Shown here: in pieces, positions 32,901 through 64,000 of the stretch
Layout: the number at the start of each line of letters is the position of its first letter
Position numbering within the stretch: position 1 is the first letter of the stretch
Assembly: GCA_032622095.1 (NCBI GenBank)
Contig: CP136063.1
Coordinates: 267,337,426 to 267,401,425, forward strand
Length of the DNA stretch: 64,000 nt
Direction: 5' to 3'
Origin: Siphonodentalium dalli
Taxonomy: Eukaryota; Mollusca; Scaphopoda; Gadilida; Siphonodentaliidae
Notes under the pieces: model-generated
The model's input: only the letters and a program-made list of their open reading frames with translations
Database searches by the model: none
What the model was told of the DNA's origin: nothing
Translations under genes and position numbers: made by a program

Positions 32901-35900
32901 GAGTTATTAGGTTTCATTCCTTGGTGAGGGGGCATGACGAGGGGGATAGGGGACTAATTAGGATGACAGGAGAGTTATTAGGTTTCATTCCTTGGTGAGG
33001 GGGGCATGACGAGGGGGATAGGGGACTAATTAGGATGACAGGAGAGTTATTAGGTTCCATTCCTTGGTGAGGGGGCATGACGAGGGGGATAGGGGACTAA
33101 TTAGGATGACAGGAGAGTTATTAGGTTTCATTCCTTGGTGAGGGGGCATGACGATGGGGATAGGGGACTAATTAGGATGACAGGAGAGTTATTAGGTTTC
33201 ATTCCTTGGTGAGGGGGCATGACGATGGGGATAGGGGACTAATTAGGATGACAGGAGAGTTATTAGGTTCCATTCCTTGGTGAGGGGGCATGACGAGGGG
33301 GATAGGGGACTAATTAGGATGACAGGAGAGTTATTAGGTTTCATTCCTTGGTGAGGGGGCATGACGAGGGGGATAGGGGACTAATTAGGATGACCGGAGA
33401 GTTATTAGGTTTCATTCCTTGGTGAGGGGGCATGACGATGGGGATAGGGGACTAATTAGGATGACAGGAGAGTTATTAGGTTTCATTCCTTGGTGAGGGG
33501 GCATGATGATGGGGATAGGGGACTAATTAGGATGACAGGTGAGTTATTAGGTTTCATTCCTTGGTGAGGGGGCATGACGAGGGGGATAGGGGACTAATTA
33601 AGATGACAGGAGAGTTATTAGGTTTCATTCCTTGGTGAGGGGGCATGACGAGGGGGATAGGGGACTAATTAGGATGACAGGAGAGTTATTAGGTTCCATT
33701 CCTTGGTGAGGGGGCATGACGAGGGGGATAGGGGACTAATTAGGATGACAGGAGAGTTATTAGGTTTCATTCCTTGGTGAGGGGGCATGACGAGGGGGAT
33801 ACGGGACTAATTAGGATGACTGGAGAGTTATTAGGTTTTATTCCTTGGTGAGGGGGCATGACGAGGGGGATAGGGGACTAATTAGGATGACAGGAGAGTT
33901 ATTAGGTTTCATTCCTTGGTGAGGGGGCATGACGAGGGGGATAGGGGACTAATTAGGATGACAGGAGAGTTATTAGGTTTCATTCCTTGGTGAGGGGGCA
34001 TGACGATGGGGATAGGGGACTAATTAGGATGACAGGAGAGTTATTAGGTTTCATTCCTTGGTGAGGGGGCATGACGAGGGGGATAGGGGACTAATTGGGA
34101 TGACAGGAGAGTTATTAGGTTTCATTCCTTGGTGAGGGGGCATGACGAGGGGGATAGGGGACTAATTAGGATGACTGGAGAGTTATTAGGTTTCATTCCT
34201 TGGTGAGGGGGCATGACGAGGGGGATAGGGGACTAATTAGGATGACAGGAGAGTTATTAGGTTTCATTCCTTGGTGAGGGGGCATGACGAGGGGGATAGG
34301 AGACTAATTAGGATGACAGGAGAGTTATTAGGTTTCATTCCTTGGTGAGGGGGCATGACGAGGGGGATAGGGGACTAATTAGGATGACAGGAGAGTTATT
34401 AGGTTTTATTCCTTGGTGAGGGGGCATGACGAGGGGGATAGGGGACTAATTAGGATGACAGGAGAGTTATTAGGTTTCATTCCTTGGTGAGGGGGCATGA
34501 CGAGGGGGATAGGGGACTAATTAGGATGACAGGAGAGTTATTAGGTTTCATTCCTTGGTGAGGGGGCATGACGAGGGGGATAGGGGACTAATTAGGATGA
34601 CAGGAGAGTTATTAGGTTTCATTCCTTGGTGAGGGGGCATGACTAGGGGGATAGGGGACTAATTAGGATGACAGGAGAGTTATTAGGTTTCATTCCTTGG
34701 TGAGGGGGCATGACGATGGGGATAGGGGACTAATTAGGATGACAGGAGAGTTATTAGGTTTCATTCCTTGGTGAGGGGGCATGACGAGGGGGATAGGGGA
34801 CTAATTAGGATGACAGGAGAGTTATTAGGTTTCATTCCTTGGTGAGGGGGCATGACGATGGGGATAGGGGACTAATTAGGATGGCAGGAGAGTTATTAGG
34901 TTTCATTCATTGGTGAGGGGGCATGACGAGGGGGGTAGGGGACTAATTGGGATGACAGGAGAGTTATTAGGTTTCATTCCTTGGTGAGGGGGCATGACGA
35001 GGGGGATAGGGGACTAATTAGGATGACAGGAGAGTTATTAGGTTTCATTCCTTGGTGAGGGGGCATGACGAGGGGGATAGGGGACTAATTGGGATGACAG
35101 GAGAGTTATTAGGTTTCATTCCTTGGTGAGGGGGCATGACGAGGGGGATAGGGGACTAATTGGGATGACAGGAGAGTTATTAGGTTTCATTCCTTGGTGA
35201 GGGGGCATGACGAGGGGGATAGGGGACTAATTAGGATGACAGGAGAGTTATTAGGTTTCATTCCTTGGTGAGGGGGCATGACGAGGGGGGTAGGGGACTA
35301 ATTGGGATGACAGGAGAGTTATTAGGTTTCATTCCTTGGTGAGGGGGCATGACGAGGGGGATAGGGGACTAATTAGGATGACAGGAGAGTTATTAGGTTT
35401 CATTCCTTGGTGAGGGGGCATGACGATGGGGATAGGGGACTAATTTGGATGACAGGAGAGTTATTAGGTTTCATTCCTTGGTGAGGGGGCATGACGAGGG
35501 GGGTAGGGGACTAATTAGGATGACAGGAGAGTTATTAGGTTTCATTCCTTGGTGAGGGGGCATGACGAGGGGGATAGGGGACTAATTCGGATGACAGGAG
35601 AGTTATTAGGTTTCATTCCTTGGTGAGGGGGCATGACGAGGGGGATAGGGGACTAATTAGGATGACAGGAGAGTTATTAGGTTTCATTCCTTGAGGCACT
35701 TGGGATCTGCTGCAGACCAAGCCTGCAAATAGCGTGTCTGTCATTTGCAGAATGAGGTCCCCAGAGGGTGAATTTAGTGACGCTATCCCGCATAGCGGGC
35801 TAGCATCACTAAATTCACCATCTGGGGACCTCATTCTGCTTAGGCCCTCAATTGCTATGGTAGATCTAGGATCAGATTGAAGTTCCCCAGTTGAAGTTGG

Positions 35901-38900: not shown

Positions 38901-41900
38901 TCAGGCCTGAAGACGTGAGACAAGAAGATCAATTGGCCCTGAATGAGACTAATCAGTGATTGCCAAGGTTTACCATAATTATATCTTAAGAATCTTGTCG
39001 TCTGTCAACATGTGACATGCACAAGCTATTACAGTTAATTATTCATATGCTTTTGCTGACAACAAAATAAGGCGAACATTCAGAAATGGTGAAGCTGGTT
39101 CGAATCCCGATAAGTGCATATTTCTGATCCACGGCCAAGGAAGGTACAGTAATGCCCTAATTAATCGACTCCTTAACCACAGCATAATTATGGGTAACTT
39201 TTCAGGATTTAGTCGGAAATATGGCTTGTTGCCATTCATCGGAAAGCTCTTGAAAAGTTACCCATAATTCTGCTGTGGTTAAGGAGTTGATTACTTAGGG
39301 CATTACTGTAACTTGGTTCATGTATCTGGGCAAGTTTGTCAGCTGATTTCCTGGAGATTGTGATTTCTACTTGCAGTAGAGTGATTTCCCACTGACATAA
39401 ACAATCTGTGCAGTCTTTCCTCCCCCAACAAAACTGATAATGTCTTTATATGGCATAGTGACTGAAATGTCCTTAAACCACAATATTTACCAGAATAGCA
39501 GAACCCACAACGTTGATAGCATATTTTTTCTACACATGTGTATTTATTATGAACAAGATATGAAACAAAATATATCAGTCTTGGGTAGAGGGGAAGATAC
39601 CCAGGGTGGATGGAAAGATACCCCAAATGTGAAGAGAAAGATACCCGCGGGCGGGGGGGGGGGGGGGGGGGTGGGATGGGATCCTGGTACATCAATTTAA
39701 TAATCAAGCCATGCTCCTGGGCAACTGGTTCCTACCTGTTAGTCCAAGTTTTCTTGTACATAAACCAGCTAGGAAATATGATAGCAAGATTGATGCTGTT
39801 TTTACCCTGTGCCAATGCATATATAAGAGACCATAGGTCGCCTCGCATATATAAGAGACCATAGGTCGCCTCGCATATATAAGAGACCATAGGTCGCCTC
39901 GCATATATAAGAGACCATAGGTCGCCTCGCATATATAAGAGACCATAGGTCGCCTCGCATATATAAGAGACCATAGGTCGCCTCGCATATATAAGAGACC
40001 ATAGGTCGCCTCGCATATATAAGAGACCATAGGTCGCCTCGCATATATAAGAGACCATAGGTCGCCTCGCATATATAAAAGACCATAGGTCGCCTCGCAT
40101 ATATAAGAGACCATAGGTCGCCTCGCATATATAAGATACCATAGGTCGCCTCGCATATATAAGAGACCATAGGTCGCCTCGCATATATAAGAGACCATAG
40201 GTCGCCTCGCATATATAAGAGACCATAGGTCGCCTCGCATATATAAGAGACCATAGGTCGCCTCGCATATATAAGAGACCATAGGTCGCCTTGCATACCC
40301 TGCTGGACAAAACAAGTGTCCATTGGCACCGCGGTGTATTTGCCGTTCGGCCGCGGTGTCAGAGTTTGTAACTGCAGTTGAGCACCGCGGCCGAACGGCA
40401 AGTACACCGTGGCCCAACAGCAAGTACACTGCGGCCGAAAGGCAACTACACCGCAGCCGAACGGCATGTACAGTACACCGTGGTTAGATTTCTGGTTTGT
40501 ATCGTCTTTTTTCAGTTTAATGAACGTACACCGCGGCAACTACACCATGGCCGAACGGCAAGTACACCGCGGCCCAACTGTAGTTAGCCGGTGGAGCCGC
40601 AGTGTAGTTGCATTTCAGCCGCGGTGGCAACGCTAACTGCACCGCGGTTAGGTGGACACTTGTTTTGTCAAGCAGGGTATATAAGAGAATGCATTGGCCT
40701 AACAATTTTTTATCATTTTTTTAAAATAAATGTTTCTTACAATTTTTAGGACATAATATAAAAAAACACCCATTACCCTGCAGGGAGCCCCACACATATA
40801 TAGAAGCATATAGAAGAGTGTCGTCTGCTCATGTTTGTCTGGGGCTCTGTATGGGTGAAATTATTAAATTGTTAAAGAATACAAGAAAAAATATTAAAAT
40901 TGTAAAAAATTGTTAGGCCAATGCATTCTCTTATATATGCGAGGCGACCTATGGTCGACCACGTTATAAAACAGCATCTCGCTATCCCAATATCCGAGCT
41001 GGTATACGTATGAGCAGACTTGGACTACCTACCGGTATACTAGAATGACATTTGCTCTTGAGATATGCAAGGAAATCTCTGTTCAAAATTGGTCACTAGA
41101 ACCACCCCTTAATGTTACTTTATCATATTTATTTCCCAGATTGAATAATGTGCTACCAATAAAAGAGAAATACTATGCTATTGATTTGCCTTGGAGTAAT
41201 ATGTCTCCCATTCTCTTGAGGATAACTAACACATGTAAAATTTCTCGGAATCGAATGCAGAGAGAGGGAGTCTGATCGTCAAAATGGAAAATTGGCCTGG
41301 TCTTGCCAGCAGCAGATCAATTGATTATTCTTGTTGGATATTTAGCACACACAGCTGCTTCTCTTAATGTAATCATCTCATAGCCAGATCAGCAATGCTG
41401 CTCTCAATCTAGCATTATTACTATTATAATTAATATAACAAGTACATTGCATCCTATATCATCTGCAAAGATGGCTTTATGCTGAGGTTTATATACCCCA
41501 AAACAATCCCCCCCCCCCCCCCCCCCCCCCCCCCCCGCAACACAGTTGTGGGGCTTATACTGAAATCAGCTTGTTCGTCGTCTGTCCTTGGACACAAATT
41601 TGTCCAGAGTTGTTTTTCTCAGTTGTTTTTTTATCATTTTCCATGAAACTTGGCACAGACATCAACCACCATGGATAGGAACCTGTGCACCTGCGATTAT
41701 GAGGTCTGTCTGACTTTTCTTTTTTCGGGGAGTTATCCCCCTTTTTCGACTTAGAAAATGTTCAATACAGGGGTTAACCTTTGTCCAAGCTTTTATTCCT
41801 ACATTTTTTATTCAAGTTTTTAAAAACTTGGCACAGATATTTATAGTACCATGGAAACCTATGCACCTGCGATTATGAAGTCTGTGTGAATTTTTTTGTG

Positions 41901-56900: not shown

Positions 56901-59900
56901 GGGTTAAACTTATTTACCTGAACATTTCATAAGGGATAACTACTCATCAATGAGTATTTAGTATAGAAAGGGTTAAACTTATTTACCTGAACATTTCCTA
57001 AGGGATAACTACTCATCAATGAGTATTTAGTATAGAAAGGGTAAAACTTATTTACCTGAACATTTCCTAAGGGATAACTACCGGTACTCATCAATGAGTA
57101 TTTAGTATAGAAAGGGTTAAACTTATTTACCTGAACATTTCCTAAGGGATAACTACTCATCAATGAGTATTTAGTATAGAAAGGGTTAATCCACCTGTAT
57201 AATGATACAATTATTTTCAGAGAGTGTCGTAAAATTTTGCAACACAGAGAGTGGATTGATGAGGACCAAAAGCAGCACTTTGACAGCGGCGTCAAGATGG
57301 GTCTCGGCTCATTTAACTTAGTATGTAATATGCTCTCTATTTATTTTCTTGTTTTTAATATTTTGTCTTGACAGCTGTGTCACTCAAAAAAAAATTTCAC
57401 ATGATCCAACTTAGACTTAATGATTGTTTGGATTTTTGCAACTTATTTATCCAATCTAACTAAATAGTTTTGTACATATATCACCAGTCCCATTATTCTG
57501 GCACTTCACCGAAATACTTAATATATTAAAATTTCTCCAAACTGGGCCCTCTATAAACTAATCTCTCATCAAACCAAACACAACTACTCAGTCCCGATTT
57601 AACCCTTTACCCAACAGAACGGCCCTATGCCAATGCATTCTCTTATATATGCGAGTCGACCATAGGTCGCCTCGCATATATAAGAGAATGCATTGGCTTA
57701 ACACATATTAAAAATGATAAAATTGTCAAAGAATGTAGAAAAATATTATAAAAATTAAAAAAAATGTAAGAAAAAATTATAAAATTGTTAAAGAATATAA
57801 GAAAAATGGTAAAAAGTGTTAAAAAAAGATTTTTTTAGGCCAACGCATTCTCTTATATATGCGAGGCGACCTATGGTCGACTCACATATATAAGAGAATG
57901 CATTGGCAAAGGCACAGGGCATAACTGTAACCATCACAATGTGGTCAATGAACCGGTTCCAATGATATCCATATTTGTATGGTGTTATTGAGACAGACCG
58001 AAGATATTTTAGGCTGTTGAAGCTTTATTTGGGCGTTTTTGGCCATTTTGTTGGGTAAATGGTTATTAACCCAACTGCATTCTTAATAAAGATTATTTCT
58101 GCAACTTGAAACCATTTCATTGCGAACAGCATTTTTAATCCATAAGTTGCCGAAAATGTGCATTTTTACCTCTGTGAACATCGCATTGGTGTTTCCTTAT
58201 CATTGTCAAACGTACCGGCCTATTTAGGTGTCTTTTGTTCGAAGAATGCTTTGAGCTAGATCATGCCATGAATCTCTACTCTGGCTGGAGATCATTTCCA
58301 CCAGTACAAAATCTGGAAAATTTATAAAGGGAAACTTATAAAGTCGAAAAAAATAATGCGGGAAGATATTTCTTAGTTATTATCTGTTACTTAATAATGT
58401 AATTCACTGTAGGTGAATGTCCAAACTCAAAATTGTTCAATTTAAGTGACATAGTGAGCGATTTTGCTTTGCGTTGCCCGGACAAGGGGTAATCATATTC
58501 TGGCCATCAAGATAAATTAAAACAATATTACGAAAATACTTGAAAATTGAACTATAATAAAGTCACAATTTGCTATTTCTGGTAATGTCATGGAAATGCA
58601 TGCCTCAAGATGAGGTAAAATTCCAGGAAAATCCTTGAACAGTTTTGGAAAAGGCATAGAATTTCACATATGATCAACTTTTTCTTTTACAGATGATCTC
58701 CCTTCTTCCAGGAAAAATTCTCAGATTACTAGAATTTATAGGATTCTCTGGGGACAAGGTATTATTTAAATTCAGATTAGCAACATTCATAGGATATTCT
58801 GAGAGGAGGGTGTTATTTAAATTCAGAATATTAGCATTAACCCTTTACCCAACAGAAGGGCCCTGTGCCAATGCATTCTCTTATATATGCAAGTCGACCA
58901 TAGGTCGCCTCGCATATATAAGAGAATGCATTGGCTTAACACATTAAAAATTATAAAATTGTTAAAGAATGTAAGAAAAAATGGTAAAAAGTGTTAAAAA
59001 AAGTTTTTTTTTAGGCCAATGCATTCTCTTATATATGCGAGGCGACCTATGGTCGACTCGCATATATAAGAGAATGCATTGGCACAGGGCATAACTGTAA
59101 CTATCACAATGTGGTCAAGGAGCCGGTTCCAATGATATCCATATTTGCATGGTTCTATTGAGACAGACCGAAGATATTTTAGGCTGTTGAAGCTTTATTT
59201 GGCCGGTTTTGGCCGTTTTGTTGGGTAAAGGGTTAACAGCTGAGCATACTCTTGAGAGGAGGAATTATTTTATTTCTCAGATTACTATCTTACATAGGAT
59301 TCTCTGGATGCAAGGTATTATTTAATTAATATATTACATGTACCAGCCTAATCTTTGAACAGGATTTTATAGAGTGAGGAATAGTGTTTATATTATTATA
59401 TTATCATATTTTATTGCAGTGTATGGCAGCACACATTGTTAGCGTAAGGGTACTCAATTCGATTTGACGGTCCCCATATAATCAGATTCCAACAACAACA
59501 ACATTTTTAGAAATCGATTAAAATTGCCCAAAAATAATGCTAACCACTGTCAGCTATAGTATAAAATTGCCTGAAACATGTTATTTATCAACATGTTGTT
59601 CGACGAAATTTGGCCTTATTATCAACACAAAGCCTCCTGATTTTAGAGTTATCCATCTTCATCCATAATTTTACTGGGCCACTAATAAATCTCGATTGTG
59701 AAAAATGATAGATTTCAAAAATTGATATCTAATAACTCTGAGCTTTGATGGGTGGGTAGGTTCCTCGATTAGAATCAAATAATTTTTACCCCCGAATAGT
59801 AATTGAGGGGTGCTTAATCGGATTATGCATCTTTTACCCTTTCTATATTAAATACTCATTAACGACTAGTTCCATTAGGAAATGTTCAGATAATAAGTTC

Positions 59901-61158
59901 AACAAACGACCAACTTATTATCTAAACATTTCCCACTAAACAATTTAAATACATCAATCTCTCTCAGTGAAAGCTTTCTGATGAATGGCAACAAGCCATA
60001 TTTCCGACTAAATCCTGAAAAATTTCCCATAATTCTGCTGTGGTTAAAGGATCATAAAATTATACTTCGAGCATTACTGTACCAAATGTACAAAAAAGCT
60101 TAATAGTTTACTTAAATTATTTGCATGAGTAAAAGCTTTATGCAATGAAGCAACAATATTTCAAACCATACCTGCTCAAAAGCAGTACACTAAAGTTGTT
60201 CTTAGTATCCCGGAAAACTAAATTTATAATCTAACATGCATGTTTGGGCATTGCTTACGAAAGCTTGAGAAATCAGTTTTAAATTTGTGTATATTAAATT
60301 CTCCACTCAGTTAAATGTTCGGAATATATATAAACTCATCATGACATACTCTTAATTTCCTTGTGCATGTTCTGGGACTAGAGTAGCTTCTCTGGTGACT
60401 CTAGGAAGGAAGGCAGCCTCCGCTTTTCCCTCTGATGTGGCGCCCTCTTATGCCGCCTCCATAGGTCCTGAGGTTTGAAGGTCTTGCCTCCTCTATGCTC
60501 GTAGTCACGGTCTGCACATCCATTGCAGAGAGGGGCAGCATATGGAAATTCAGTTTTGAATTTGCGCATGGATGCGTGCACAAAATATGTTCTGCGTCAA
60601 TTTATTAACCCTTTACCCAACAAACCGGCCAAAACCGGCCAAATAAAGCTTTAACAGCCTAAAATATCTTCGGTCTGTCTCAATAGAACCATACAAATAT
60701 GGATATCATTGGAATCGGCTCCTTGACCACATTGTGATAGTTACAGTTATGCCCTGTGCCAATGCATTCTCTTATATATGCGAGTCGACCATAGGTCGCC
60801 TCGCATATATAAGAGAATGCATTGGCCTAAAAAAAAACTTGTTTTAACACTTTTTAGTAATTTTACCATTTTTTCTTACATTCTTTAACAATTTTATAAT
60901 TTTTAATGTGTTAAGCCAATGCATTCTCTTATATATGCGAGGCGACCTATGGTCGACTCGCATATATAAGAGAATGCATTGGCACAGGGCCCTTCTGTTG
61001 GGTAAAGGGTTAATGTACTCAGTCGCTTGTTTTTATTTATTTTTAGAAACTTGGACTGATAGATCTCAAGAAAGGCAGTGACTTGGGAAACAGTCTACGC
61101 GGACCACTTTGTTCCATAATTCTGATCTCTTACCACACCGTTGTTTGTTATATACTAG
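3278..61158 (+). CDS. TTC39: TTC39-like gene, partial, eight exons
   Basis: Joined exons 3278-3309, 49147-49260, 50213-50288, 53122-53254, 55316-55448, 57221-57320, 58693-58758 and 61047-61158 give 766 nt, about 255 residues, open in one frame with every junction in phase and every intron GT-AG. The product matches the N-terminal half of TTC39A/B (IML2/DUF3808 family with TPR-like helices). Diagnostic blocks in order are FEDAALNIP (2-10), ALKLFLSNNFSEA (about 28-40), MYHALGYGTILYIQ (about 53-66), HAELCYAECLL (about 122-132), FIQDENLVSFVKGGLKIR (about 138-155), GVKMGLGSFNL (about 186-196), ILRLLEFIGFSGD (about 205-217), and LISYHTVVCYILG at the end. Vertebrate TTC39B (T39) is linked to LXR turnover; function here is inferred. 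The C-terminal TPR half lies right of the window and the start codon was not found. Closest to A/B rather than TTC39C by the YHALGY and CYAECLL blocks. Confidence 0.93.
3580..4240 (+). repeat. degenerate tandem repeat, Helitron-like core
   Basis: Three to four diverged monomers of roughly 170-190 bp. Each carries a block like acatggctgccagtggccat followed by cttggattt, a 'cacacc/taacc-tacag' block and 'ctagatggag'. These are the same building blocks as the 164 bp monomers at 46576-48709. The ORFs here are by-products. Confidence 0.7.
4609..5000 (+). mobile_element. piggyBac-like MITE, family pbM1
   Basis: 392 bp between perfect TTAA duplications (4605-4608, 5001-5004), with TIR CCCTTTACCCAACA. 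The order is left TIR, about 140 bp unique arm, an 80 bp near-perfect hairpin (ccaatgcattctcttatata with its complement), an AT-rich spacer, a second hairpin in opposite order, and the right TIR. There is no coding capacity. TTAA target and a CCCTTT terminus are piggyBac hallmarks; the assignment is inference. Confidence 0.88.
5229..5513. mobile_element. foldback element split by a MITE
   Basis: Inverted arms gcaggtcccctggcattaca (left) and its imperfect complement ending ccaggggacctg (right, near 5490-5503) surround the MITE at 5261-5446, which sits at their symmetry centre. The host element is therefore an older palindrome of about 100 bp. Confidence 0.6.
5261..5446. mobile_element. TA-flanked foldback MITE, family B
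   Basis: 186 bp, almost one perfect hairpin, beginning CAGTAATGCCCTAATTAATC and ending with its complement, between TA dinucleotides (5259-5260, 5447-5448). The apex is gttgccattcatgaatggcaac. TIR and TA target suggest a Tc1/mariner-type source (inference). About a dozen full, half or nested copies occur in this window. Confidence 0.88.
5515..5570. repeat. isolated pbM4 palindrome core
   Basis: Near-perfect palindrome aatgttcagataataa ... ttattatctgaacatt. The same core occurs inside the pbM4 MITEs (for example 20428-20490). Here it stands alone, without recognisable CCCTTT ends. Confidence 0.6.
5697..6055. repeat. dispersed repeat, copy 2
   Basis: About 360 bp aligning with 2450-2765, same orientation. 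It has two internal insertions relative to that copy, one around 5745-5795 and one around 5855-5885. The family is not recognised. Confidence 0.75.
6085..6265. repeat. dispersed mollusc-type repeat
   Basis: Contains tgtctgt-rich sequence, aaacttggcataggcat, cctgtgcccctgcaattatg and attatccccctttttt. The same ordered blocks recur at 41570-41765 and 41790-41945. Confidence 0.65.
6345..7310 (+). repeat. G-rich minisatellite, left block
   Basis: About 35 tandem units of a 25-26 bp motif, consensus ggggaggggcagtgg + tattcttagt. Unit length and the middle positions vary (gtggtgg, gctggag, gcagtgg). One AT-rich interruption lies at about 6800-6850. Two G-runs of four per unit make adjacent units candidates for G-quadruplex folding. 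The 76 aa ORF here is repeat-derived. Confidence 0.95.
7312..7395 (-). repeat. inverted units of the G-rich minisatellite
   Basis: Three units of the same minisatellite in reverse orientation, joined to the left block by a perfect small palindrome centred near 7312 (ttcttagtattctaagaa). The last unit overlaps the 3' end of the FLYWCH gene and supplies its stop codon. Confidence 0.93.
7377..7862 (-). CDS. FLYWCH zinc-finger protein, two exons, truncated
   Basis: Exon 1 is 7862-7647 (72 codons) and exon 2 is 7481-7377 (34 codons plus TAG). The donor is CAG|GTACGA, the acceptor is tttatttttaacag, and the junction is phase 0. Residues 5-66 form a FLYWCH finger: FFIANDRGDKHLVF, then W39, Cys41/42, Cys46 and the His64-x-His66 pair. 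Exon 2 (AFVADLKQSVRSGSRPVPSI then YQEE) resembles the helix after the finger in FLYWCH/MULE-transposase proteins of molluscs. The last residues (ILVGEG) and the stop lie in the minisatellite, so the rest of a longer protein has probably been lost. Start chosen at the first ATG, 48 nt below a TATA box. It may be a domesticated DNA-binding protein or a broken transposase. It is nested in intron 1 of the TTC39-like gene on the opposite strand. Confidence 0.85.
7910..7917 (-). promoter_or_regulatory. TATA box of the FLYWCH gene
   Basis: TATAAAAA on the - strand, 48 nt upstream of the chosen ATG. This leaves room for a start site near 7880 and a short leader. Confidence 0.55.
8149..9825 (+). repeat. 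G-rich minisatellite, right block
   Basis: About 65 units of the same 25-26 bp motif as 6345-7310, + orientation. Multi-unit segments recur (for example 8600-8830 and 8865-9095), a sign of block duplication. It starts right after the upstream flank of the FLYWCH gene and ends at unique sequence near 9826. Confidence 0.95.
9966..10178. mobile_element. family B foldback MITE
   Basis: 213 bp with the CAGTAATGCC terminus on the left and a one-base variant on the right, both next to TA. Apex sequences gaaagctctc and gagagctttc are still paired. The small ORFs on both strands are arms of the hairpin. Confidence 0.85.
10324..10582. mobile_element. piggyBac-like MITE, family pbM3 (diverged)
   Basis: Flanked by TTAA (10320-10323 and 10583-10586). 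Left end CCTTGCCATGACTGGAGC, right end agctcccaccatgaaaggg. It contains two diverged copies of the caatgcattctcttatata hairpin module shared with pbM1. Confidence 0.72.
10706..10934. mobile_element. piggyBac-like MITE, family pbM3
   Basis: 229 bp between TTAA at 10702-10705 and 10935-10938. Left end CCATTTAATGACGGGAGC, right end complementing CCCTTCCATTATTGGAGC. It contains the ccagtgcattctcttatata module on the left and its partner on the right. Confidence 0.78.
11885..11914 (+). repeat. poly-G tract
   Basis: Thirty consecutive G. Its length may be unreliable because homopolymers are hard to sequence. Confidence 0.9.
12569..12833. mobile_element. piggyBac-like MITE, family pbM4
   Basis: Left end aaccctttctttattaaaat, central inverted aaatgttcag ... 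ctgaacatttcc blocks, right end gggagaatccattcagtata. The right TTAA is degraded. Confidence 0.65.
12861..13395. mobile_element. family B MITE interrupted by pbM1
   Basis: TA-flanked CAGTAATGCC ... cattactg element whose right arm is broken by a pbM1 copy at 12975-13368. Part of the left arm is missing: it jumps from the terminal 35 bp to the apex. Confidence 0.85.
12975..13368 (+). mobile_element. pbM1 MITE nested in family B
   Basis: 394 bp, TIR CCCTTTACCCAACA, with TTAA at 12971-12974 and 13369-13372. The host arm normally reads ctgtggTTAAgg at this spot, so the target TTAA is visible in intact copies. Nearly identical to 4609-5000. Confidence 0.9.
13430..14041. repeat. dispersed 0.6 kb duplicate, copy 1
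   Basis: Aligns with 17909-18529 over its whole length (for example attggccccggggacattga and cgactcgtcattgatttcga). No shared long ORF is conserved, so this is duplicated non-coding DNA or an unclassified repeat. Confidence 0.8.
14568..14737. mobile_element. family B foldback MITE, diverged
   Basis: 170 bp with CAGTAATGCCCT on the left and catactg on the right. The arms are more diverged than in other copies and the left TA is lost. Confidence 0.75.
14738..17798. other. non-coding intronic stretch
   Basis: No gene could be supported. A CA microsatellite lies near 14914-14928. Around 17200-17260 and 17505-17550 a block containing gagaagatctgggcacaa is repeated in direct orientation, followed by gggccataactctgg. 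ORFs of 60-103 codons here (including 15691-16002 on the - strand) show no recognisable domain. Confidence 0.5.
17799..18529. repeat. 0.7 kb duplicate, copy 2
   Basis: Its last 620 bp match 13430-14041. Its first part (gttagatttaaaggattagg onward) is repeated immediately afterwards at 18530-18740. Confidence 0.8.
18530..18740. repeat. partial tandem copy of the 0.7 kb repeat
   Basis: Matches about the first 210 bp of 17799-18529 with scattered substitutions, in direct tandem. It breaks off just after attggccccaggga. Confidence 0.78.
19045..19113 (+). mobile_element. 3' end of Helitron-like family
   Basis: Contains gctccattgactgta, aagttgagcta and the small hairpin GTGTCATTGACAC. The same ordered end closes the element at 46576-48709 and recurs at about 50090-50128. 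A short 3' hairpin near the end is Helitron-like; the class assignment is inference. Confidence 0.55.
19735..19840. mobile_element. half copy of family B MITE
   Basis: Right arm only, from the apex gagagctttccgatgaatgg to the terminal ggcattactg followed by TA. Identical half copies occur at 45100-45197, 50514-50618 and 59966-60079, so the breakpoint at the hairpin apex recurs. Confidence 0.8.
20282..20531. mobile_element. piggyBac-like MITE, family pbM4
   Basis: 250 bp between TTAA at 20278-20281 and 20532-20535. Left end CTCTTTCTACACTGAATGG, right end tgagtacctactagtatagg. The centre holds the aatggtcagataataagttc palindrome. Confidence 0.8.
21358..22604. mobile_element. 1.25 kb element with long inverted repeats
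   Basis: Ends CAGTG...CACTG. Inverted arms of about 120 bp: left 21358-21480 (tagtccaagtcttctcgtac, agccggctaagatatcggga), complemented at right 22435-22604. A family B terminus (21322-21351) abuts the left end with no matching right half. The interior has ORFs of 101 codons (-, 21577-21882) and 67 codons (+, 22141-22344) with no recognised domain. Single-arm relics lie near 39735-39800 and 40975-41035. No target duplication was found. Confidence 0.65.
22786..22848. mobile_element. pbM4 right-end remnant
   Basis: Reads tgatgggagaatcaatttag to aaagggttaa, the inverted end of a pbM4 MITE without its left half. Confidence 0.55.
23007..35693 (+). repeat. giant 71 bp minisatellite, about 179 copies
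   Basis: 12,687 bp of head-to-tail 71 bp units beginning ggtttcattccttggtgagg. Units differ mainly at a few positions: gag/gatgggg, ggata/ggaca/gggta, gcatgac/gcgtgac, aattagg/aattggg/aatttgg. Two units (deletion points near 30401 and 30601) lack 13 bp. Every unit has stops in all frames and three G-runs of at least four on the + strand. Edges are abrupt: it starts mid-unit at cattccttgg and ends mid-unit at tttcattccttg. No copy of the unit was found elsewhere in the window. Confidence 0.98.
35718..36143. mobile_element. compound foldback element, family C, intact
   Basis: About 426 bp with long inverted ends (gcctgcaaatagcgtgtctg, then tcatttgcagaatgaggtcc), each arm carrying its own hairpin (ccccagagggtgaatttagt with its complement). 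The 11 bp ctgctgcagac flanks both sides (35707-35717 and 36144-36154), a possible target duplication. No transposase. Other copies: 38465-38912, 44620-45096, 50872-51280, 53384-53939 and 63202-63430. Confidence 0.8.
36375..36840. other. non-coding stretch
   Basis: Open frames of 80 and 94 codons on the - strand have no recognisable domain and no splice context. Nothing further is supported. Confidence 0.4.
36846..37219. mobile_element. MITE with GGGGCGC-type inverted ends
   Basis: 374 bp. Left end ctgggcgccggaag, right end complementing caggggcgctggaaga. Inside both ends are G/C-rich blocks (gggcagggggg and its complement), flanking an AT-rich centre. CAGGGGCGC ends are common in hAT elements, but I saw no 8 bp duplication. 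Confidence 0.5.
37307..37751. mobile_element. pbM4 MITE interrupted by pbM2
   Basis: Flanked by TTAA (37303-37306, 37752-37755). Left end CCCTTTGTGTTCTAAATGG, right end tttagtataaaaaggg. The pbM2 copy 37387-37634 sits inside it. Confidence 0.8.
37387..37634. mobile_element. piggyBac-like MITE, family pbM2, nested
   Basis: 248 bp between TTAA copies (37383-37386, 37635-37638). TIR CaCTTTGAGTGCCAGG on the left, complement of CCCTTTGAGTGCCAGG on the right. It holds one copy of the caatgcattctcttatata hairpin module. Human MER75/Looper-type piggyBac ends are similar by recollection. Confidence 0.85.
37940..38141. mobile_element. family B foldback MITE
   Basis: 202 bp, TA-flanked, CAGTAATGC at left and a variant tattgctg at right. 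The long arms still pair almost completely. Confidence 0.85.
38465..38912. mobile_element. family C compound foldback element
   Basis: Inverted caggcctgaga ends outside the two gaggtccccagagggtg hairpins. The middle carries gattgaagttcccaa and a spacer related to the other family C copies. Confidence 0.75.
39147..39308. mobile_element. family B foldback MITE
   Basis: 162 bp, TA-flanked, CAGTAATGCC ... ggcattactg. The right arm lacks the segment near the apex. Confidence 0.85.
39815..40295 (+). repeat. 28 bp tandem array grown from a MITE hairpin
   Basis: About 17 units of 28 bp, consensus gcctcgcatatataagagac + cataggtc, with only a few substitutions. The unit is one arm plus loop of the hairpin module found in pbM1/pbM2, and the flanks (ccctgtgccaatgcat at left, gagaatgcattggcctaac at 40683 onward) are the rest of that module. 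Since 28 is not a multiple of 3 and no frame has a stop, three overlapping - strand ORFs of 192-245 codons result; these are artefacts. Confidence 0.95.
40298..40677. mobile_element. GC-rich TA-flanked MITE, copy 2
   Basis: 380 bp with TIR CCCTGCTGGACAAAACAAGT and TA on both sides (40296-40297, 40678-40679). It sits inside the hairpin module: the flanks rejoin as gcatatataag after removing it with one TA. It is inverted relative to copy 1 at 1969-2349 and richer in accgcggccgaacggcaa motifs. Confidence 0.87.
40680..40960. mobile_element. right part of a hairpin-module MITE
   Basis: Continues the module split by 40298-40677: gagaatgcattggcctaac, AT-rich spacer, then gttaggccaatgcattctct and gcgaggcgacctatggtcga. 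No CCCTTT end is visible on the right. Confidence 0.6.
41508..41536 (+). repeat. poly-C tract
   Basis: Twenty-nine consecutive C, similar in length to the poly-G tract at 11885-11914. Confidence 0.9.
41570..41945. repeat. two copies of a dispersed mollusc-type repeat
   Basis: Two tandem diverged copies, each with aacttggcacaga, cacctgcgattatga, gagttat-cccccttttt and cgacttagaa. Related to 6085-6265. Confidence 0.7.
41946..42898. other. non-coding stretch with hairpin remnants
   Basis: Decayed pbM3-like hairpin pieces lie at about 42000-42115. The rest, including a 68-codon - strand frame at 42584-42790, shows no recognisable gene. Confidence 0.45.
42899..43172. mobile_element. piggyBac-like MITE, family pbM3
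   Basis: Left gatgggagctgcactggtgc, right gcagctcccatcatgaaagg before TTAA (43173-43176). Two hairpin modules (ctctcatataggcgagtctc and partners) fill the centre. A second right-end remnant follows at 43284-43337 (ggaagctccagtcatgaaaggg type). Confidence 0.75.
43340..43958. other. non-coding stretch
   Basis: A 70-codon frame (43327-43539) has no recognised domain. A C-rich, CA-rich low-complexity tract lies at 43930-43955. Confidence 0.4.
43959..44103. mobile_element. family B foldback MITE, short
   Basis: 145 bp with CAGTAATGCTC and gagcattactg ends next to TA. Most of the right arm is deleted from the apex outward. Confidence 0.83.
44620..45096. mobile_element. family C element interrupted by pbM2
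   Basis: Ends gcctgcaaatagtgtgtatg and gacagacacactatttgcag. Carries pbM2 at 44877-45001 within the region that reads cagttgaggcc in other copies, here cagTTAA. Confidence 0.8.
44877..45001. mobile_element. short pbM2 MITE, nested
   Basis: 125 bp between TTAA (44873-44876, 45002-45005). TIR CCCTTTGAGTGCCAGG. It has lost the hairpin module and keeps ggggccgatctcatcggccc. Confidence 0.88.
45100..45197. mobile_element. half copy of family B MITE
   Basis: Right arm only, from ggagctttccgatgaatggc to gattatttaggg, directly after a family C end. Confidence 0.75.
45577..45590 (+). promoter_or_regulatory. E-box plus ETS-type motif, possible promoter
   Basis: CACGTG is followed at once by ACTTCCGG, a pairing common in CpG-type animal promoters. 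A 55-codon ORF opens at 45632, but it is unrecognised and offers no donor in phase 2 to join the exon at 49147. This could be an alternative promoter for the TTC39-like gene, or chance. Confidence 0.25.
46062..46315. mobile_element. piggyBac-like MITE, family pbM3
   Basis: Left CCCTTTGATAATGGGAGCTG, right agctccagtcatggaaggg. It shares the TTAA at 46316-46319 with the next element, so two MITEs stand back to back. Contains two gcattctcttatata modules. Confidence 0.78.
46320..48847 (+). mobile_element. pbM1 MITE split by a Helitron-like insert
   Basis: Left end CCCTTTACCCAACA after TTAA (46316-46319), right end tgttgggtaaagga before TTAA (48848-48851). The normal AT-rich spacer between its two hairpins is broken at 46575/48710 by about 2.1 kb of other sequence. 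Confidence 0.85.
46576..48709 (+). mobile_element. Helitron-like element with 164 bp satellite core
   Basis: Starts with the hairpin agctcaactttactttgtaa ... tttgagct and ends with the hairpin GTGTCATTGACAC followed by tttcat; no clear terminal inverted repeat. The core is about 11 tandem monomers of 164 bp (gtagatggga landmarks at 46895, 47059, 47223, 47387, 47543, 47707, 47871, 48035, 48190, 48354 and 48518). Every fourth interval is 155-156 bp, giving a higher-order repeat of about 648 bp. The layout recalls bivalve pearl/HINE elements with about 160 bp repeats (inference). The 60-codon - strand ORFs are repeat artefacts. Confidence 0.75.
48878..48965. mobile_element. pbM4 left-end fragment
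   Basis: Reads aaccctttgattactgaata ... gaatgttcag, matching the first 85 bp of pbM4 copies; the rest is absent. Confidence 0.55.
49147..49260 (+). CDS. TTC39: TTC39-like exon 2 of window
   Basis: 114 nt between ctttcacag and G|GTGAGA. Encodes HNVEDGVELPDAIQEASQAL followed by KLFLSNNFSEARQRMEP, the first helical pair of the TTC39 family. Enters in phase 2 and leaves in phase 2. Confidence 0.95.
49327..49790. mobile_element. family B MITE interrupted by pbM2
   Basis: Ends caataatgcc and ggcattaatg, each one base off the family consensus. Intact pairing arms at 49340-49525. The terminal right arm is separated by pbM2 at 49530-49775. Confidence 0.83.
49530..49775. mobile_element. pbM2 MITE nested in family B
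   Basis: 246 bp between TTAA (49526-49529, 49776-49779). TIR CCCTTTGAGTGCCAGG and one hairpin module. Nearly identical to 37387-37634. Confidence 0.88.
49871..50128 (+). mobile_element. short copy of the Helitron-like family
   Basis: Contains gccaccagcagccatcttgg near the start and ends ttgagctacagtgtcattga + cactttcat, as in 46576-48709, with less than two core monomers. Confidence 0.6.
50213..50288 (+). CDS. TTC39: TTC39-like exon 3 of window
   Basis: 76 nt between tatcatttcag and ATG|GTAAGT. Encodes C-ADWSMYHALGYGTILYIQ-AVMTFDM with the TTC39A/B signature YHALGY. Phase 2 in, phase 0 out. Confidence 0.96.
50514..50618. mobile_element. half copy of family B MITE
   Basis: Right arm only, ggggagctttccgatgaatg to gcattactg followed by TA. 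Confidence 0.8.
50872..51280. mobile_element. family C compound foldback element
   Basis: Two gaggtccccagagggtg-type hairpins (50888-50974 and 51168-51254) around gattgaagttcccaa and tgtcgtctgccaatttgg. Ends cctgtcatttgcag and ctgcaaatgacagacacact. Confidence 0.75.
51743..52708. mobile_element. hAT-type non-autonomous transposon, 966 bp
   Basis: Perfect 14 bp TIR CAGTGTTCGCGCTG and a perfect 8 bp target duplication GCGCTGGG (51735-51742 and 52709-52716), both hallmarks of the hAT superfamily. Subterminal regions on both sides carry several copies of tttggctaa. No transposase ORF: frames of 66-68 codons inside are not recognisable. Lies in the intron between exons 3 and 4. Confidence 0.92.
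53122..53254 (+). CDS. TTC39: TTC39-like exon 4 of window
   Basis: 133 nt between ttaattgacag and GAGG|GTAAGT. Encodes ADIDAAIHSIKRAVIVCNKH followed by RKKVGLFGSLTKRGSK and HDYSELTE. It corresponds to the helix and basic linker before the CYAECLL block in TTC39A/B. Phase 0 in, phase 1 out. Confidence 0.94.
53384..53939. mobile_element. family C element, long form
   Basis: About 556 bp, the longest copy. Ends tcaagccttcaaatagtgtg and its complement. The interior is a near-perfect inverted repeat about an axis near 53665-53690 (gagactatctatagtctc), with attgaagttcccta/ggggaacttcaat mirrored. It shows the full symmetric structure from which the shorter copies can be derived. Confidence 0.8.
54182..54275 (+). 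repeat. tRNA-like segment, possible SINE head
   Basis: tgtagctgaagtgg resembles a pol III A box and gtaggttctaaccc a B box, 60 bp apart. The outer bases gtccctgt and acaggggt can pair. The T-stem pairs 4 of 5 and no clean anticodon arm is seen. It is more likely a tRNA-derived SINE relic than a working tRNA. It lies inside an 84-codon ORF that has no other support. Confidence 0.35.
55316..55448 (+). CDS. TTC39: TTC39-like exon 5 of window
   Basis: 133 nt between tctgttttcag and AA|GTAAGA. Encodes EIHAELCYAECLLIRALLTF and then IQDENLVSFVKGGLKIRECH, the best-conserved block of the family. Phase 1 in, phase 2 out. Confidence 0.97.
55575..56090. mobile_element. pbM3 MITE, two partial copies with AT-rich core
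   Basis: CCCTTTCATGATGGGAGCTG after TTAA (55571-55574) recurs in the same direction at about 55998. Between them lie one hairpin module and about 300 bp of drifting attctttaacaattttt repeats. No right-hand TTAA. Confidence 0.6.
56464..56696. mobile_element. piggyBac-like MITE, family pbM4
   Basis: 233 bp between TTAA at 56460-56463 and 56697-56700. Left CCCTTTCTGTACTAAATGG, right tgagtatttagtttagaaag + gg. Its right end is the seed of the following array. Confidence 0.83.
56701..57189 (+). repeat. 69 bp tandem array of a MITE end
   Basis: Seven units of 69 bp, each acttatttacctgaacattt ... atagaaagggttaa, i.e. the last 69 bp of the adjacent pbM4 repeated. One unit has an extra 4-5 bp near 57080. 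It ends about 30 bp before the 3' splice site of the exon at 57221. The 122-codon - strand ORF exists because 69 is a multiple of 3. Confidence 0.95.
57221..57320 (+). CDS. TTC39: TTC39-like exon 6 of window
   Basis: 100 nt between caattattttcag and TTA|GTATGT. Encodes ECRKILQHREWIDEDQKQHF then DSGVKMGLGSFNL, the family's H-F-x-G-G-V-K-x-G-x-G-x-F-N-L block. Phase 2 in, phase 0 out. Confidence 0.96.
57603..58065 (-). mobile_element. pbM1 MITE, reversed
   Basis: Begins CCCTTTACCCAACAGAACGG after TTAA (57599-57602). The long arm (cggttccaatgatatccata) is on the right, so orientation is opposite to 4609-5000. The right end is decayed (gggtaaatggttatta). The AT-rich spacer is lengthened by internal duplication. 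Confidence 0.82.
58693..58758 (+). CDS. TTC39: TTC39-like exon 7 of window
   Basis: 66 nt between tttcttttacag and AAG|GTATTA. Encodes MISLLPGKILRLLEFIGFSG then DK, the family's S-L-L-P-x-x-I-L-R-L-L-E-F-x-G-F-S-G motif. Phase 0 on both sides. Its 3' end is duplicated in the following intron. Confidence 0.97.
58759..59320 (+). repeat. 51 bp tandem copies of exon 7 end plus donor
   Basis: The last 42 bp of exon 7 and its donor recur at 58768-58819 (ttcagattagcaacattcat, aggatattctgagagg, then GG|GTGTTA) at a period of 51 bp. A third unit is split by the pbM1 at 58841-59232. A fourth lies at 59270-59320 (cagattactatcttacatag, gattctctggatgcaag|gtatta). The first copy stays open in the TTC39 frame and mirrors FIGFSGDK as FIGYSERR. 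Confidence 0.85.
58841..59232 (-). mobile_element. pbM1 MITE inside the exon-end repeat
   Basis: 392 bp, TTAA at 58837-58840 and 59233-59236, reversed orientation. Both hairpin modules are intact. It interrupts the third 51 bp unit, so it inserted after that array formed. Confidence 0.9.
59838..60079. mobile_element. pbM4 fragment followed by half family B
   Basis: 59838-59941 carries ccctttctatattaaatact and the aatgttcagataataagttc palindrome with no right TIR. 59966-60079 is the right half of family B from the apex to gcattactg. A tandem pair of relics. Confidence 0.65.
60609..61009 (+). mobile_element. pbM1 MITE just upstream of exon 8
   Basis: About 401 bp between TTAA at 60605-60608 and 61010-61013, same orientation as 4609-5000. 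It ends 37 bp before the exon at 61047, so it occupies the branch-point neighbourhood of that intron. Confidence 0.9.
61047..61158 (+). CDS. TTC39: TTC39-like exon 8 of window
   Basis: 112 nt between tatttatttttag and CTAG|GTGAGC. Encodes KLGLIDLKKGSDLGNSLRGP then LCSIILISYHTVVCYIL, ending in phase 1 of a Gly codon, as expected for the family's YHT...ILG boundary. Its last 30 bp are the source of the array that follows. Confidence 0.95.
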
Positions 61159-63191
61159 GTGAGCCATCAGTTATTATTCAAGTAGACCTCGGTGAGCCTG
61201 CTCTTACCATACTGTTGTTTGTTATATACTCGGTGAGCCTGCTCTTACCATACTGTTGTTTGTTATATACTCGGTGAGCCTGCTCTTACCATACTGTTGT
61301 TTGTTATATACTCGGTGAGCCATCTCTTACCATACCGTTGTTTGTTATATACTCGGTGAGCCATCTCTTACCATACCGTTGTTTGTTATATACTCGGTGA
61401 GCCATCTCTTACCATACCGTTGTTTGTTATATACTCGGTGAGCCATCTCTTACCATACCGTTGTTTGTTATATACTCGGTGAGCCATCTCTTACCATACC
61501 GTTGTTTGTTATATACTCGGTGAGCCATCTCTTACCATACCGTTGTTTGTTATATACTCGGTGAGCCATCTCTTACCATACCGTTGTTTGTTATATACTC
61601 GGTGAGCCATCTCTTACCATACCGTTGTTTGTTATATACTCGGTGAGCCATCTCTTACCATACCGTTGTTTGTTATATACTCGGTGAGCCATCTCTTACC
61701 ATACTGTTGTTTGTTATATACTCGGTGAGCCATCTCTTACCATACTGTTGTTTGTTATATACTTGGTGAGCCATCTCTTACCATACTGTTGTTTGTTATA
61801 TACTCGGTGAGCCATCTCTTACCATACCGTTGTTTGTTATATACTCGGTGAGCCATCTCTTACCATACCGTTGTTTGTTATATACTCGGTGAGCCATCTC
61901 TTACCATACCGTTGTTTGTTATATACTCGGTGAGCCATCTCTTACCATACCGTTGTTTGTTATATACTCGGTGAGCCATCTCTTACCATACCGTTGTTTG
62001 TTATATACTCGGTGAGCCATCTCTTACCATACCGTTGTTTGTTATATACTCGGTGAGCCATCTCTTACCATACCGTTGTTTGTTATATACTCGGTGAGCC
62101 ATCTCTTACCATACCGTTGTTTGTTATATACTCGGTGAGCCATCTCTTACCATACCGTTGTTTGTTATATACTCGGTGAGCCATCTCTTACCATACCGTT
62201 GTTTGTTATATACTCGGTGAGCCATCTCTTACCATACCGTTGTTTGTTATATACTCGGTGAGCCATCTCTTACCATACCGTTGTTTGTTATATACTCGGT
62301 GAGCCATCTCTTACCATACCGTTGTTTGTTATATACACGGTGAGCCATCTCTTACCATACCGTTGTTTGTTATATACTCGGTGAGCCATCTCTTACCATA
62401 CCGTTGTTTGTTATATACTCGGTGAGCCATCTCTTACCATACCGTTGTTTGTTATATACTCGGTGAGCCATCTCTTACCATACCGTTGTTTGTTATATAC
62501 TCGGTGAGCCATCTCTTACCATACCGTTGTTTGTTATATACTCGGTGAGCCATCTCTTACCATACCGTTGTTTGTTATATACTCGGTGAGCCATCTCTTA
62601 CCATACCGTTGTTTGTTATATACTCGGTGAGCCATCTCTTACCATACCGTTGTTTGTTATATACTCGGTGAGCCATCTCTTACCATACCGTTGTTTGTTA
62701 TATACACGGTGAGCCATCTCTTACCATACCGTTGTTTGTTATATACTCGGTGAGCCATCTCTTACCATACCGTTGTTTGTTATATACTCGGTGAGCCATC
62801 TCTTACCATACCGTTGTTTGTTATATACTCGGTGAGCCATCTCTTACCATACCGTTGTTTGTTATATACTCGGTGAGCCATCTCTTACCATACCGTTGTT
62901 TGTTATATACTCGGTGAGCCATCTCTTACCATACCGTTGTTTGTTATATACTCGGTGAGCCATCTCTTACCATACCGTTGTTTGTTATATACTCGGTGAG
63001 CCATCTCTTACCATACCGTTGTTTGTTATATACTCGGTGAGCCATCTCTTACCATACCGTTGTTTGTTATATACTCGGTGAGCCATCTCTTACCATACCG
63101 TTGTTTGTTATATACTCGGTGAGCCATCTCTTACCATACCGTTGTTTGTTATATACTCGGTGAGCCATCAGTTATTATTCAAGTAGACCTC
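61159..63191 (+). repeat. 41 bp array carrying the exon 8 donor site
   Basis: After the true donor, 32 bp of intron (gtgagccatcagttattatt + caagtagacctc) lead into 48 intervals of exactly 41 bp. Each unit holds atctcttaccataccgttgt + ttgttatatactcg, a near-copy of the exon 3' end, then the donor G|GTGAGC. Donors run from 61191 to 63159, 49 in all. The array closes with the same 32 bp intron start at 63160-63191, so duplication boundaries are visible on both sides. Variation is slight (tact/tacc, a few cac/ctc). Confidence 0.97.
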
Positions 63192-63201
63192 TGTGCACCA
63201 T

Positions 63202-63430
63202 GCCTGCAAATAGTCTGTCTGTCATTTGCAGAATGAGGTCCCCAGAGGGTGAATTTAGTGATGAGGTCCCCAGAGGGTGAATTTAGTGATGAGGTCCCCA
63301 GAGGGTGAATTTAGTGATGAGGTCCCCAGAGGGTGAATTGAGTGATGAGGTCCCCAGAGGGTGAATTTAGTGATGAGGTCCCCAGAGGGTGAATTTAGTG
63401 ATGAGGTCCCCAGAGGGTGAATTTAGTGAT
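63202..63430 (+). repeat. family C end with 28 bp tandem expansion
   Basis: Begins like a family C terminus (gcctgcaaatagtctgtctg), then seven head-to-tail 28 bp units of gaggtccccagagggtgaat + ttagtgat (63234-63429). The remainder of the family C element is absent. Confidence 0.92.
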
Positions 63431-64000
63431 GCTCTCCTCCAGACCTGTTTAATTTCCCGATATCGGTGGGAGACTCCCGATTTCGGTGGGAGACTCCCGA
63501 TTTTGTGTTATTTCTCCTGTGCTCCCGATCGGGAAACGAAATCTTCCAATTTAAAAGATAAAACCAAAAATTAGCCAACGGCTGTAGCAAGCAATAAGCC
63601 AGCATGCTATAGTGTTACAAATCAATTAGGAATATATCGCCTGCAAGTCAAAATGTTGACACTACGCGATTAACATCTTTCTTTTGTTTAACAGAGTTGA
63701 GTAAGTAAATGCGGTCTTCAATTTCCAGACAAGGATTATAATATATCAAACAAGAAGCCTTCCTTTAAAGTGCTGGTTTCTGCTCGTCCCGACCGACTGC
63801 TTTAAAACTGCCGACTCAATTTATTATATTGCCGATTTAAACTTTTTTTTTTTTCTGTGGGTGAAAAGTTCTGTTTCCGTCTTTGCGGTATTCCGTGTTT
63901 TGTATACGCAATAACAGAACGCGAATCGAGCAGACCTCAAACAATTCTGTCAATGTGAACTCCCTTTAAATTCAGCGATGTTACATGACGTTACTCAATA
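63431..64000. other. non-coding intronic end of window
   Basis: A short inverted/direct cluster of cccgatatcggtgggagact at 63457-63500 is the only structure seen. No TTC39 exon was found; the gene continues to the right. Confidence 0.45.

Follow-up and report, generated by a model that had tools for sequence, protein, structure and literature searches.

The 64,000-nucleotide window of the Siphonodentalium dalli genome analyzed here contains a TTC39-family gene in which the end of an exon and its splice signal recur as 49 successive copies inside the next intron. This raises the questions of how such an array was born, whether its extra donors play a role in splicing and whether it is unique as a structure.

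Copies of an exon–intron junction

The presence of 49 extra junction copies, proposed in the first-pass annotation, is confirmed by both the count of GTGAG sites and the period returned by TRF (Table 1). Indeed, positions 61101-63250 contain 50 GTGAG sites, one being the native donor and 49 being extra; the first donor-to-donor interval is 33 and the remaining 48 are exactly 41 each. The donor coordinates of the first-pass annotation designate the base preceding each GT.

Table 1. Positions of the array and of the adjacent exon within the window
Feature	Position	Description
TTC39-family exon	61047-61158	native donor GT at 61159
Extra GTGAGC donor-like sites (n=49)	GT at 61192 to 63160	exact 41-bp spacing; intron 3' of the TTC39-family exon
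Tandem repeat (TRF)	61188-63169	period 41, 48.3 copies, 99% matches, 0% indels

A blastn alignment of the common unit with the exon end spans 44 bp with 95.5% identity (E 1.46e-17), far exceeding chance; the two sequences differ at only two of these 44 places, -23 and -2, both changes being synonymous in the exon frame. At the native donor, the junction reads TAG/GTGAGC, while the copies have TCG (46), ACG (2) or TTG (1) before GTGAGC, and hence none of the 49 retains the A found at -2 in the native donor.

Origin of the array

Regarding the host gene, seven exons spliced at their native sites give an open frame that matches PF10300 (4.3e-78), and the TTC39-family gene looks intact at this locus as judged from its sequence. 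It had been proposed that the array was born by tandem duplication across the splice junction, and this scenario is supported by four features taken together: the exact 41-bp unit, the 3-bp ATC repeat at the breakpoint of the array, the first 32 intron bases, present downstream of the native donor and again downstream of the last unit, and the intact, conserved frame around them.

Possible roles of the extra donors

From the sequence, the array might be viewed as a decoy field, a length modulator or a source of isoforms; however, none of these roles found support in our sequence-based tests. Position-matrix scores are lower for the copies than for the native donor, despite a U1 pairing that is still good, the five copies tested are predicted to be about as accessible as the native donor, and antisense matches are limited to short ones. 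As for isoforms, apart from the native donor the frame is kept solely by extra donor 1, which adds 33 nt (+11 aa) free of stops, while the other 48 extra donors lead to a stop. As had been anticipated, donors 2 and 3 shift the frame, a stop being met past the junction, and the remaining 46 of the 49 copies have a stop within the extension itself, at 61275-61277. It is most likely that the array is a near-neutral passenger, splicing being kept at the exon-proximal donor.

An unusually long case of a known kind

Splice-junction minisatellites have already been published in amphioxus as "mirages", and the human IFI6 minisatellite is another published example of the same kind. Further examples were also found in the same genome. 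Given these and the published cases, the TTC39-family array is not unique as a structure; its unusual aspect is its copy number, which makes it exceptionally long for a minisatellite of this type. It is useful as a naturally occurring system for testing which splice site cells choose when the correct one lies among many near-identical ones.

Among 88 sampled exons of other genes, local duplications span 6 of 146 testable junctions, as compared with 91 of 962 intron positions; junction duplications are therefore by-products of general tandem duplication in this genome, without targeting of junctions. Within the TTC39-family gene itself, the preceding exon carries an older, decayed version of such an array.

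Host gene and structure of the array

The exon next to the array, e5 in the series of TTC39-family exons, reaches on its own E 7.5e-4 and 18.8 bits against PF10300 (Iml2/TTC39), below the cut-off of 22.2. A search of the genome (2,226,750,531 bases in 9 contigs) revealed additional PF10300 exons, arranged in order upstream and downstream of e5, as well as a paralogue on contig C9. With the 15 kb beyond the window included for downstream exons, seven exons were placed, namely e4 and e5 followed by 66104-66171, 67508-67567, 68500-68591, 71773-71931 and 74433-74550 (coordinates above 64,000 continue the window scale into the downstream C3 DNA). All are bounded by AG and GT and continuous in phase and, joined at their native sites, they form one open frame of 225 residues that matches PF10300, the sole Pfam family found in the host gene, at 4.3e-78 and 263.6 bits (cut-off 22.2; profile positions 180-400 of 467). 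The exon after e5 begins at TTTCAG|GGCTGGCTGATGG and completes a split glycine codon (...CYILG-LADGDIDL). The joined model covers the exons from 58693 to 74550.

Features of the TTC39-family locus around e4, e5 and the junction array
Feature	Position	Strand	Description
Preceding TTC39 exon e4	58693..58758	+	AG/GT bounds, open frame, PF10300 match
Decayed copy of e4 end and donor, at +51	58772..58827	+	76.8% identity in 56 bp; E between 9.8e-6 and 3e-4, depending on the search
Dispersed repeat, ~400 bp, abundant	58837..59241	+	between the two e4 copies
Decayed copy of e4 end and donor, at +556	59274..59325	+	84.6% over 52 bp, E 1.4e-10
TTC39-family coding exon e5	61047..61158	+	112 nt, phase 1 end, flanked by AG and GT
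Native 5' splice site TAG|GTGAGC	61159..61164	+	in-phase join to the acceptor before 66104 (C3:267403529, beyond the window)
Initial 32 bases of the intron, copy 1	61159..61190	+	identical to 63160-63191
41-bp minisatellite	61188..63169	+	unit of ~34 exon-end bases and GTGAGCC; 49 extra donor-like sites
Donor 1	61192..61197	+	in frame; would add 33 nt, 11 residues
Earliest in-frame stop (TGA)	61275..61277	+	overlaps the third extra donor; included in the extension of donors 4-49
Initial 32 bases of the intron, copy 2	63160..63191	+	after the final unit; the intron continues beyond

The first-pass annotation had described 49 extra donor sites at an exact spacing of 41 bp downstream of e5, and both TRF and a direct count bear this out. 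Indeed, TRF reports a period of 41 with 48.3 copies, 99% matches and no indels, and 61101-63250 contains 50 GTGAG sites, i.e., the native one (GT at 61159) and 49 others (GT at 61192 to 63160, numbered here as donors 1 to 49), with a spacing of 41 in 48 of 48 intervals between consecutive copies. When the array is cut at each GTGAG, 40 of the 50 stretches are of a common type, variants account for 3, 2, 2 and 1, and the two remaining are one of 33 bases that follows the native donor and the final one, which continues into the intron. Unit variation is confined to positions 8, 9, 22, 39 and 40 of 41 and spares GTGAGC, which is kept in 49/49 copies; selection on this motif within the array was considered and set aside, the unit variants amounting by our own count to about five events, too few for a test. 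The structure of the array is thus real and had been well described. That its copy number is wrong, or the array itself spurious, is very improbable: near-identical units are hard to assemble, but the variant units have an ordered distribution among the others, the array is flanked by unique sequence and lies at one place in the genome, and the assembly contains many other tandem arrays. In the same intron, just downstream of the array, 63233-63431 is occupied by a 28-bp minisatellite of 7.1 copies, whose motif (RMRSPEGEFSDA in translation) occurs singly at several sites of the window.

The native junction and the array units are 95.5% identical over 44 bp (-34 to +10), and the junction differs from the common unit at two positions, -23 (C/T) and -2 (A/C, the second-last base before the GT), both synonymous in the exon frame (CAC/CAT and CTA/CTC). 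The repeated 41-bp stretch runs from the exon (ATCTCTTACC...) via the donor to GTGAGCC, with ATC at both source breakpoints (exon ...CTG-ATC-TCTTACC, intron GTGAGCC-ATC-AGTT); as the two ATC lie 41 bases apart, one tandem duplication at this 3-base repeat gives the unit. As had been noted earlier, the initial 32 bases of the intron follow both the native donor and the last unit. The first copy borders on a unit at CTC|GGTGAGCC, and the second continues into TGTGCACC. The founding event would hence have been a single tandem duplication between the two ATC trinucleotides, expansion to 49 copies may have proceeded by slippage or unequal exchange, and the 32 intron bases before the array could stem from a second join at the CTC common to intron and unit. 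This order of events is tentative. The proposal of a tandem duplication across a splice junction is in turn supported by the exact, exon-derived 41-bp unit, the ATC at both breakpoints and the intact frame at the native donor. A mobile origin was rejected, a 354-base exon-plus-array query having matched this locus only in a genome search that skipped very common words and in which one candidate was scored. At the presumed corresponding donor of the C9 paralogue, no tandem repeat was found. One might also suppose that e5 belongs to a dead gene and that its donors are irrelevant; this is extremely improbable in view of seven stop-free exons with AG/GT bounds, continuous phase and a PF10300 match of 4.3e-78, and of exon-unit differences that are both synonymous.

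The native donor, its copies and their predicted coding outcome

The native donor has A at -2, a base shared by 51/64 control donors of other genes and by none of the 49 copies; C at -2, as in the common unit, occurs in one control. With a matrix built on the 64 controls, the native donor scores 6.39 (8/64 controls lower) and the 46 common copies 1.69 (0/64 lower), a comparison that is biased since the controls were picked with a consensus favoring A at -2. Predicted U1 pairing is -9.5 kcal/mol for the native donor (35/41 control donors weaker) and -8.3 for the common copies (29/41 weaker), with a range of -8.1 to -8.3 kcal/mol across the 49, and by this predicted measure the copies are respectable donors. 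Outside the array, 394 of the 1,159 GT sites in 50300-74000 reach the score of the copies in a 41-donor matrix, and 41 that of the native donor; the row of the first TTC39 donor, which was misplaced, is left out of the site-strength comparison. Structural hiding of the copies was rejected as an explanation, the mean unpaired probability of the donor 9-mer being 0.35 for the native site and 0.24-0.33 in the five copies tested.

Regarding the coding outcome, the native donor and donor 1 are the only ones to give an open frame into the exon at 66104 and the later exons. Joined translation agrees with the first-pass annotation, according to which donor 1, 33 nt downstream, would add 11 residues in frame and stop-free, and later donors would shift the frame or lie past the in-frame stop: donor 1 adds GEPSVIIQVDL, donors 2 and 3 shift the frame and meet a stop after the junction, the 46 others have a stop inside the extension, and 48/49 copies would therefore yield a stop. 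The longer form using donor 1 scores 258.4 bits against PF10300, versus 263.6 with the native donor.

Taken together, the array is probably a long mirage, as splice-junction minisatellites are called in amphioxus, which was formed from an exon-intron junction and persists as a near-neutral passenger, splicing taking place mainly at the exon-proximal native donor. The choice of this donor would be helped by its A at -2 and by the short exon that it defines. Leakage to later sites would mostly produce transcripts with early stops, and leakage to donor 1 an 11-residue insertion, and the array would be tolerated as a near-neutral passenger in its intron of 4,945 bp. Exact periodicity, the exon-derived unit, the intact frame with a strong PF10300 match through the native donor, the stops expected from 48/49 copies, the A at -2 and higher matrix score of the native donor, and the account of amphioxus mirages (PMC3087553) all point to such a passenger; counting against it are the good predicted U1 pairing of the copies, the copies of a kinesin junction array that lack the -2 difference, and the repeat-unit donors of human IFI6.

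The IFI6 case (6-16, G1P3), whose minisatellite has a unit of 12 nt, bears directly on the idea that the array is a source of isoforms. This minisatellite provides multiple splice donors, according to the title of Turri 1995 as cited in PMC4526556, and downstream repeat units are described as donors used in its mRNA (PMC4526556). The TTC39 array likewise offers many donors, candidate sites by sequence, but with a unit of 41 bp rather than a short one and in an unrelated gene, with its match to PF10300. Appreciable use of donor 1, and perhaps of others, with a protein extended by 11 residues, is unlikely. In its favor, the site is in frame, open, 33 nt from the native one and, like the other copies, well paired with U1 by prediction, and the IFI6 units provide a precedent (PMC4526556), while its C at -2 and low matrix score, together with an insertion that breaks a conserved stretch and slightly lowers the profile score, argue the other way.

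It appears improbable that the array has a regulatory role, its U1 sites serving as decoys or, depending on array length, modulating splicing, the amount of transcript (by way of early stops) or premature polyadenylation. Such a role would be in keeping with the 49 sites, all predicted to pair with U1 at -8.1 to -8.3 kcal/mol, and with the 38-bp repeat of human TERT intron 6, an intronic minisatellite like the present one, whose copy number is described as affecting splicing (PMC3948165). However, the unit variants are too few to reveal selection, unrelated genes contain similar arrays, though shorter, at a frequency that does not exceed the background of introns, and antisense matches are short. 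Indeed, when two units were compared with 27.5 kb for pairing of the TERT type, the best matches were of 10-13 bp, with E 1.5 or worse, and the array thus differs from a TERT-type repeat in having no marked antisense complementarity.

Relation to known junction minisatellites

The kind of structure described here is already known, and the copy number is its unusual part. Amphioxus mirages have been described in Adh3 and in the globins BflGb6 and BflGb9 (PMC3087553) and later in PGBD5 and troponin C (PMC3902484), at both kinds of boundary and with haplotype variation, BflGb6 having 6 and 3 units (PMC3087553, PMC3902484), and they reportedly leave regular splicing undisturbed (PMC3087553). As in mirages, the units of the TTC39 array span an exon-intron boundary and carry a splice signal, but with 49 extra copies instead of the 6 and 3 units of the BflGb6 haplotypes. 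The hosts differ as well (Adh3 and globins versus TTC39) and, whereas splicing and polymorphism were reported in amphioxus, the present array is known from one assembly; the intact frame at its native donor is compatible with regular splicing as in mirages. At 2.2 Gb in 9 contigs, the present genome is also unlike that of amphioxus in size and contig number; a search for the GFP family returned no match, nor did its controls. Tandem repeats at exon-intron boundaries are also reported to alter splicing in human paralogues (PMC2812944), and in potato RdRp a duplication across a boundary is reported to have given a new intron (PMC4974935). These cases share with ours a tandem duplication across a splice junction, but they yield new introns or altered exons, whereas the TTC39 copies are known from genomic sequence alone. 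No other animal case was recognized in the titles and abstract openings among the matches listed from one open literature collection.

Junction duplications elsewhere in the gene and genome

Downstream of e4 lie two decayed copies of its end and donor, which represent an older junction array in the same gene. The dispersed repeat between them has copies of ~98-99% identity at 39 other places among the 40 scored of 445 candidates, or ~98-100% over all 40 places. This repeat and, by eye, also 60740-60990 contain long near-palindromes (CCAATGCATTCTCTTATATATGCGAG...), and a 28-bp tandem repeat of 17.2 copies at 39817-40297 looks like an internal expansion of its palindromic part.

Junction duplications were surveyed at hand-picked exons, without single-exon matches and some near-identical paralogues: 48 of adaptin and myosin in batch one (28/30 and 20/85 profile matches) and 40 of kinesin and tRNA-synthetase in batch two (32/114 and 8/31). 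A duplication was counted when a same-strand duplicate lay at most 650 bp away and reached at least 6 bp beyond the junction in both directions, at E 1e-3; junctions were placed by script and dropped if not found or with a score of 0 or below, which kept 64/88 donors and 82/88 acceptors. Batch one gave duplications at 1/41 donors, 3/45 acceptors, 52/602 intron positions and 2/48 mid-exons, and batch two at 1/23, 1/37, 39/360 and 0/40, respectively. In the pooled data, duplications affect 6/146 junctions, as compared with 91/962 intron positions (Fisher p 0.04 in the direction of depletion, positions within a locus being non-independent) and with 2/88 mid-exons (p 0.71), and one of the six, in sampled stretch L032, is a 20-bp match that may be due to chance. 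Enrichment at junctions is therefore rejected, the junction rate not exceeding that of introns. For TTC39 itself, the test returned 2/8 donors, 0/8 acceptors and 30/148 intron positions, some of the latter inside the array, with input positions that were wrong by 2 bases for the first donor and by 1 for the last acceptor; the comparison of duplicated donors with other genes (2/8 versus 2/64) gives p 0.058. At -31 from the TTC39 acceptor at 68499 lies a 27-bp duplicate of the acceptor and the initial exon bases, which is absent from the filtered output of this test; in the corresponding sampled stretch (L001:4440-4559, or 68440-68559 on the window scale), GGCTATTTATAGGTTT is present twice, each time after AG.

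The clearest junction-spanning minisatellites of the survey were found at a kinesin gene donor (L055; 60-bp unit, 3.1 copies), at a tRNA-synthetase gene acceptor (L076; 50-bp unit, 5.9 copies, plus a 57-bp unit of 2.0) and at an adaptin gene acceptor (L017; 72-bp unit, 4.2 copies), the 49-copy TTC39 array being the longest seen in this analysis. The kinesin copies keep the native AAG|GTATAA, so that a deviation at -2, as in the TTC39 array, is no general rule. Junction-born repeats hence recur in this genome as by-products of widespread tandem duplication, and the decayed e4 array, along with junction repeats elsewhere that are no more frequent than those of introns, argues for the TTC39 array being such a mutational by-product. 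A broader proposal, in which junction minisatellites are a standing feature throughout the genome in this lineage (6/146 sampled junctions), the exon-proximal member of each field is reliably taken, even among 50 near-identical donors, and the number and spacing of U1 sites in the TTC39 array, as the extreme case, measurably tune splicing or isoform choice, is unlikely.

Artificial duplication of splice sites has been used to study which of several competing donors the spliceosome selects. With the native site and its 49 copies, TTC39 offers a natural series of 50 donors whose surroundings are almost the same and whose main differences are the base at -2 and the distance to the exon; for comparison, the same genome also has smaller arrays, of donors as well as of acceptors. 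These observations suggest that mirages, which were reported in amphioxus, may be a widely recurring feature of another large animal genome; if so, this would matter for gene annotation and for the gain of introns via tandem duplication.

Several other features were observed in passing. A 12.7-kb satellite of 71-bp units occupies 23007-35693 of the window, with 104.3 copies in one stretch and 71.8 in another. Myosin-head exons form a dense cluster at G000:C4:274219458-275508405, which suggests many tandem myosin genes, and CCCTAA repeats are present at one of five sampled contig ends.
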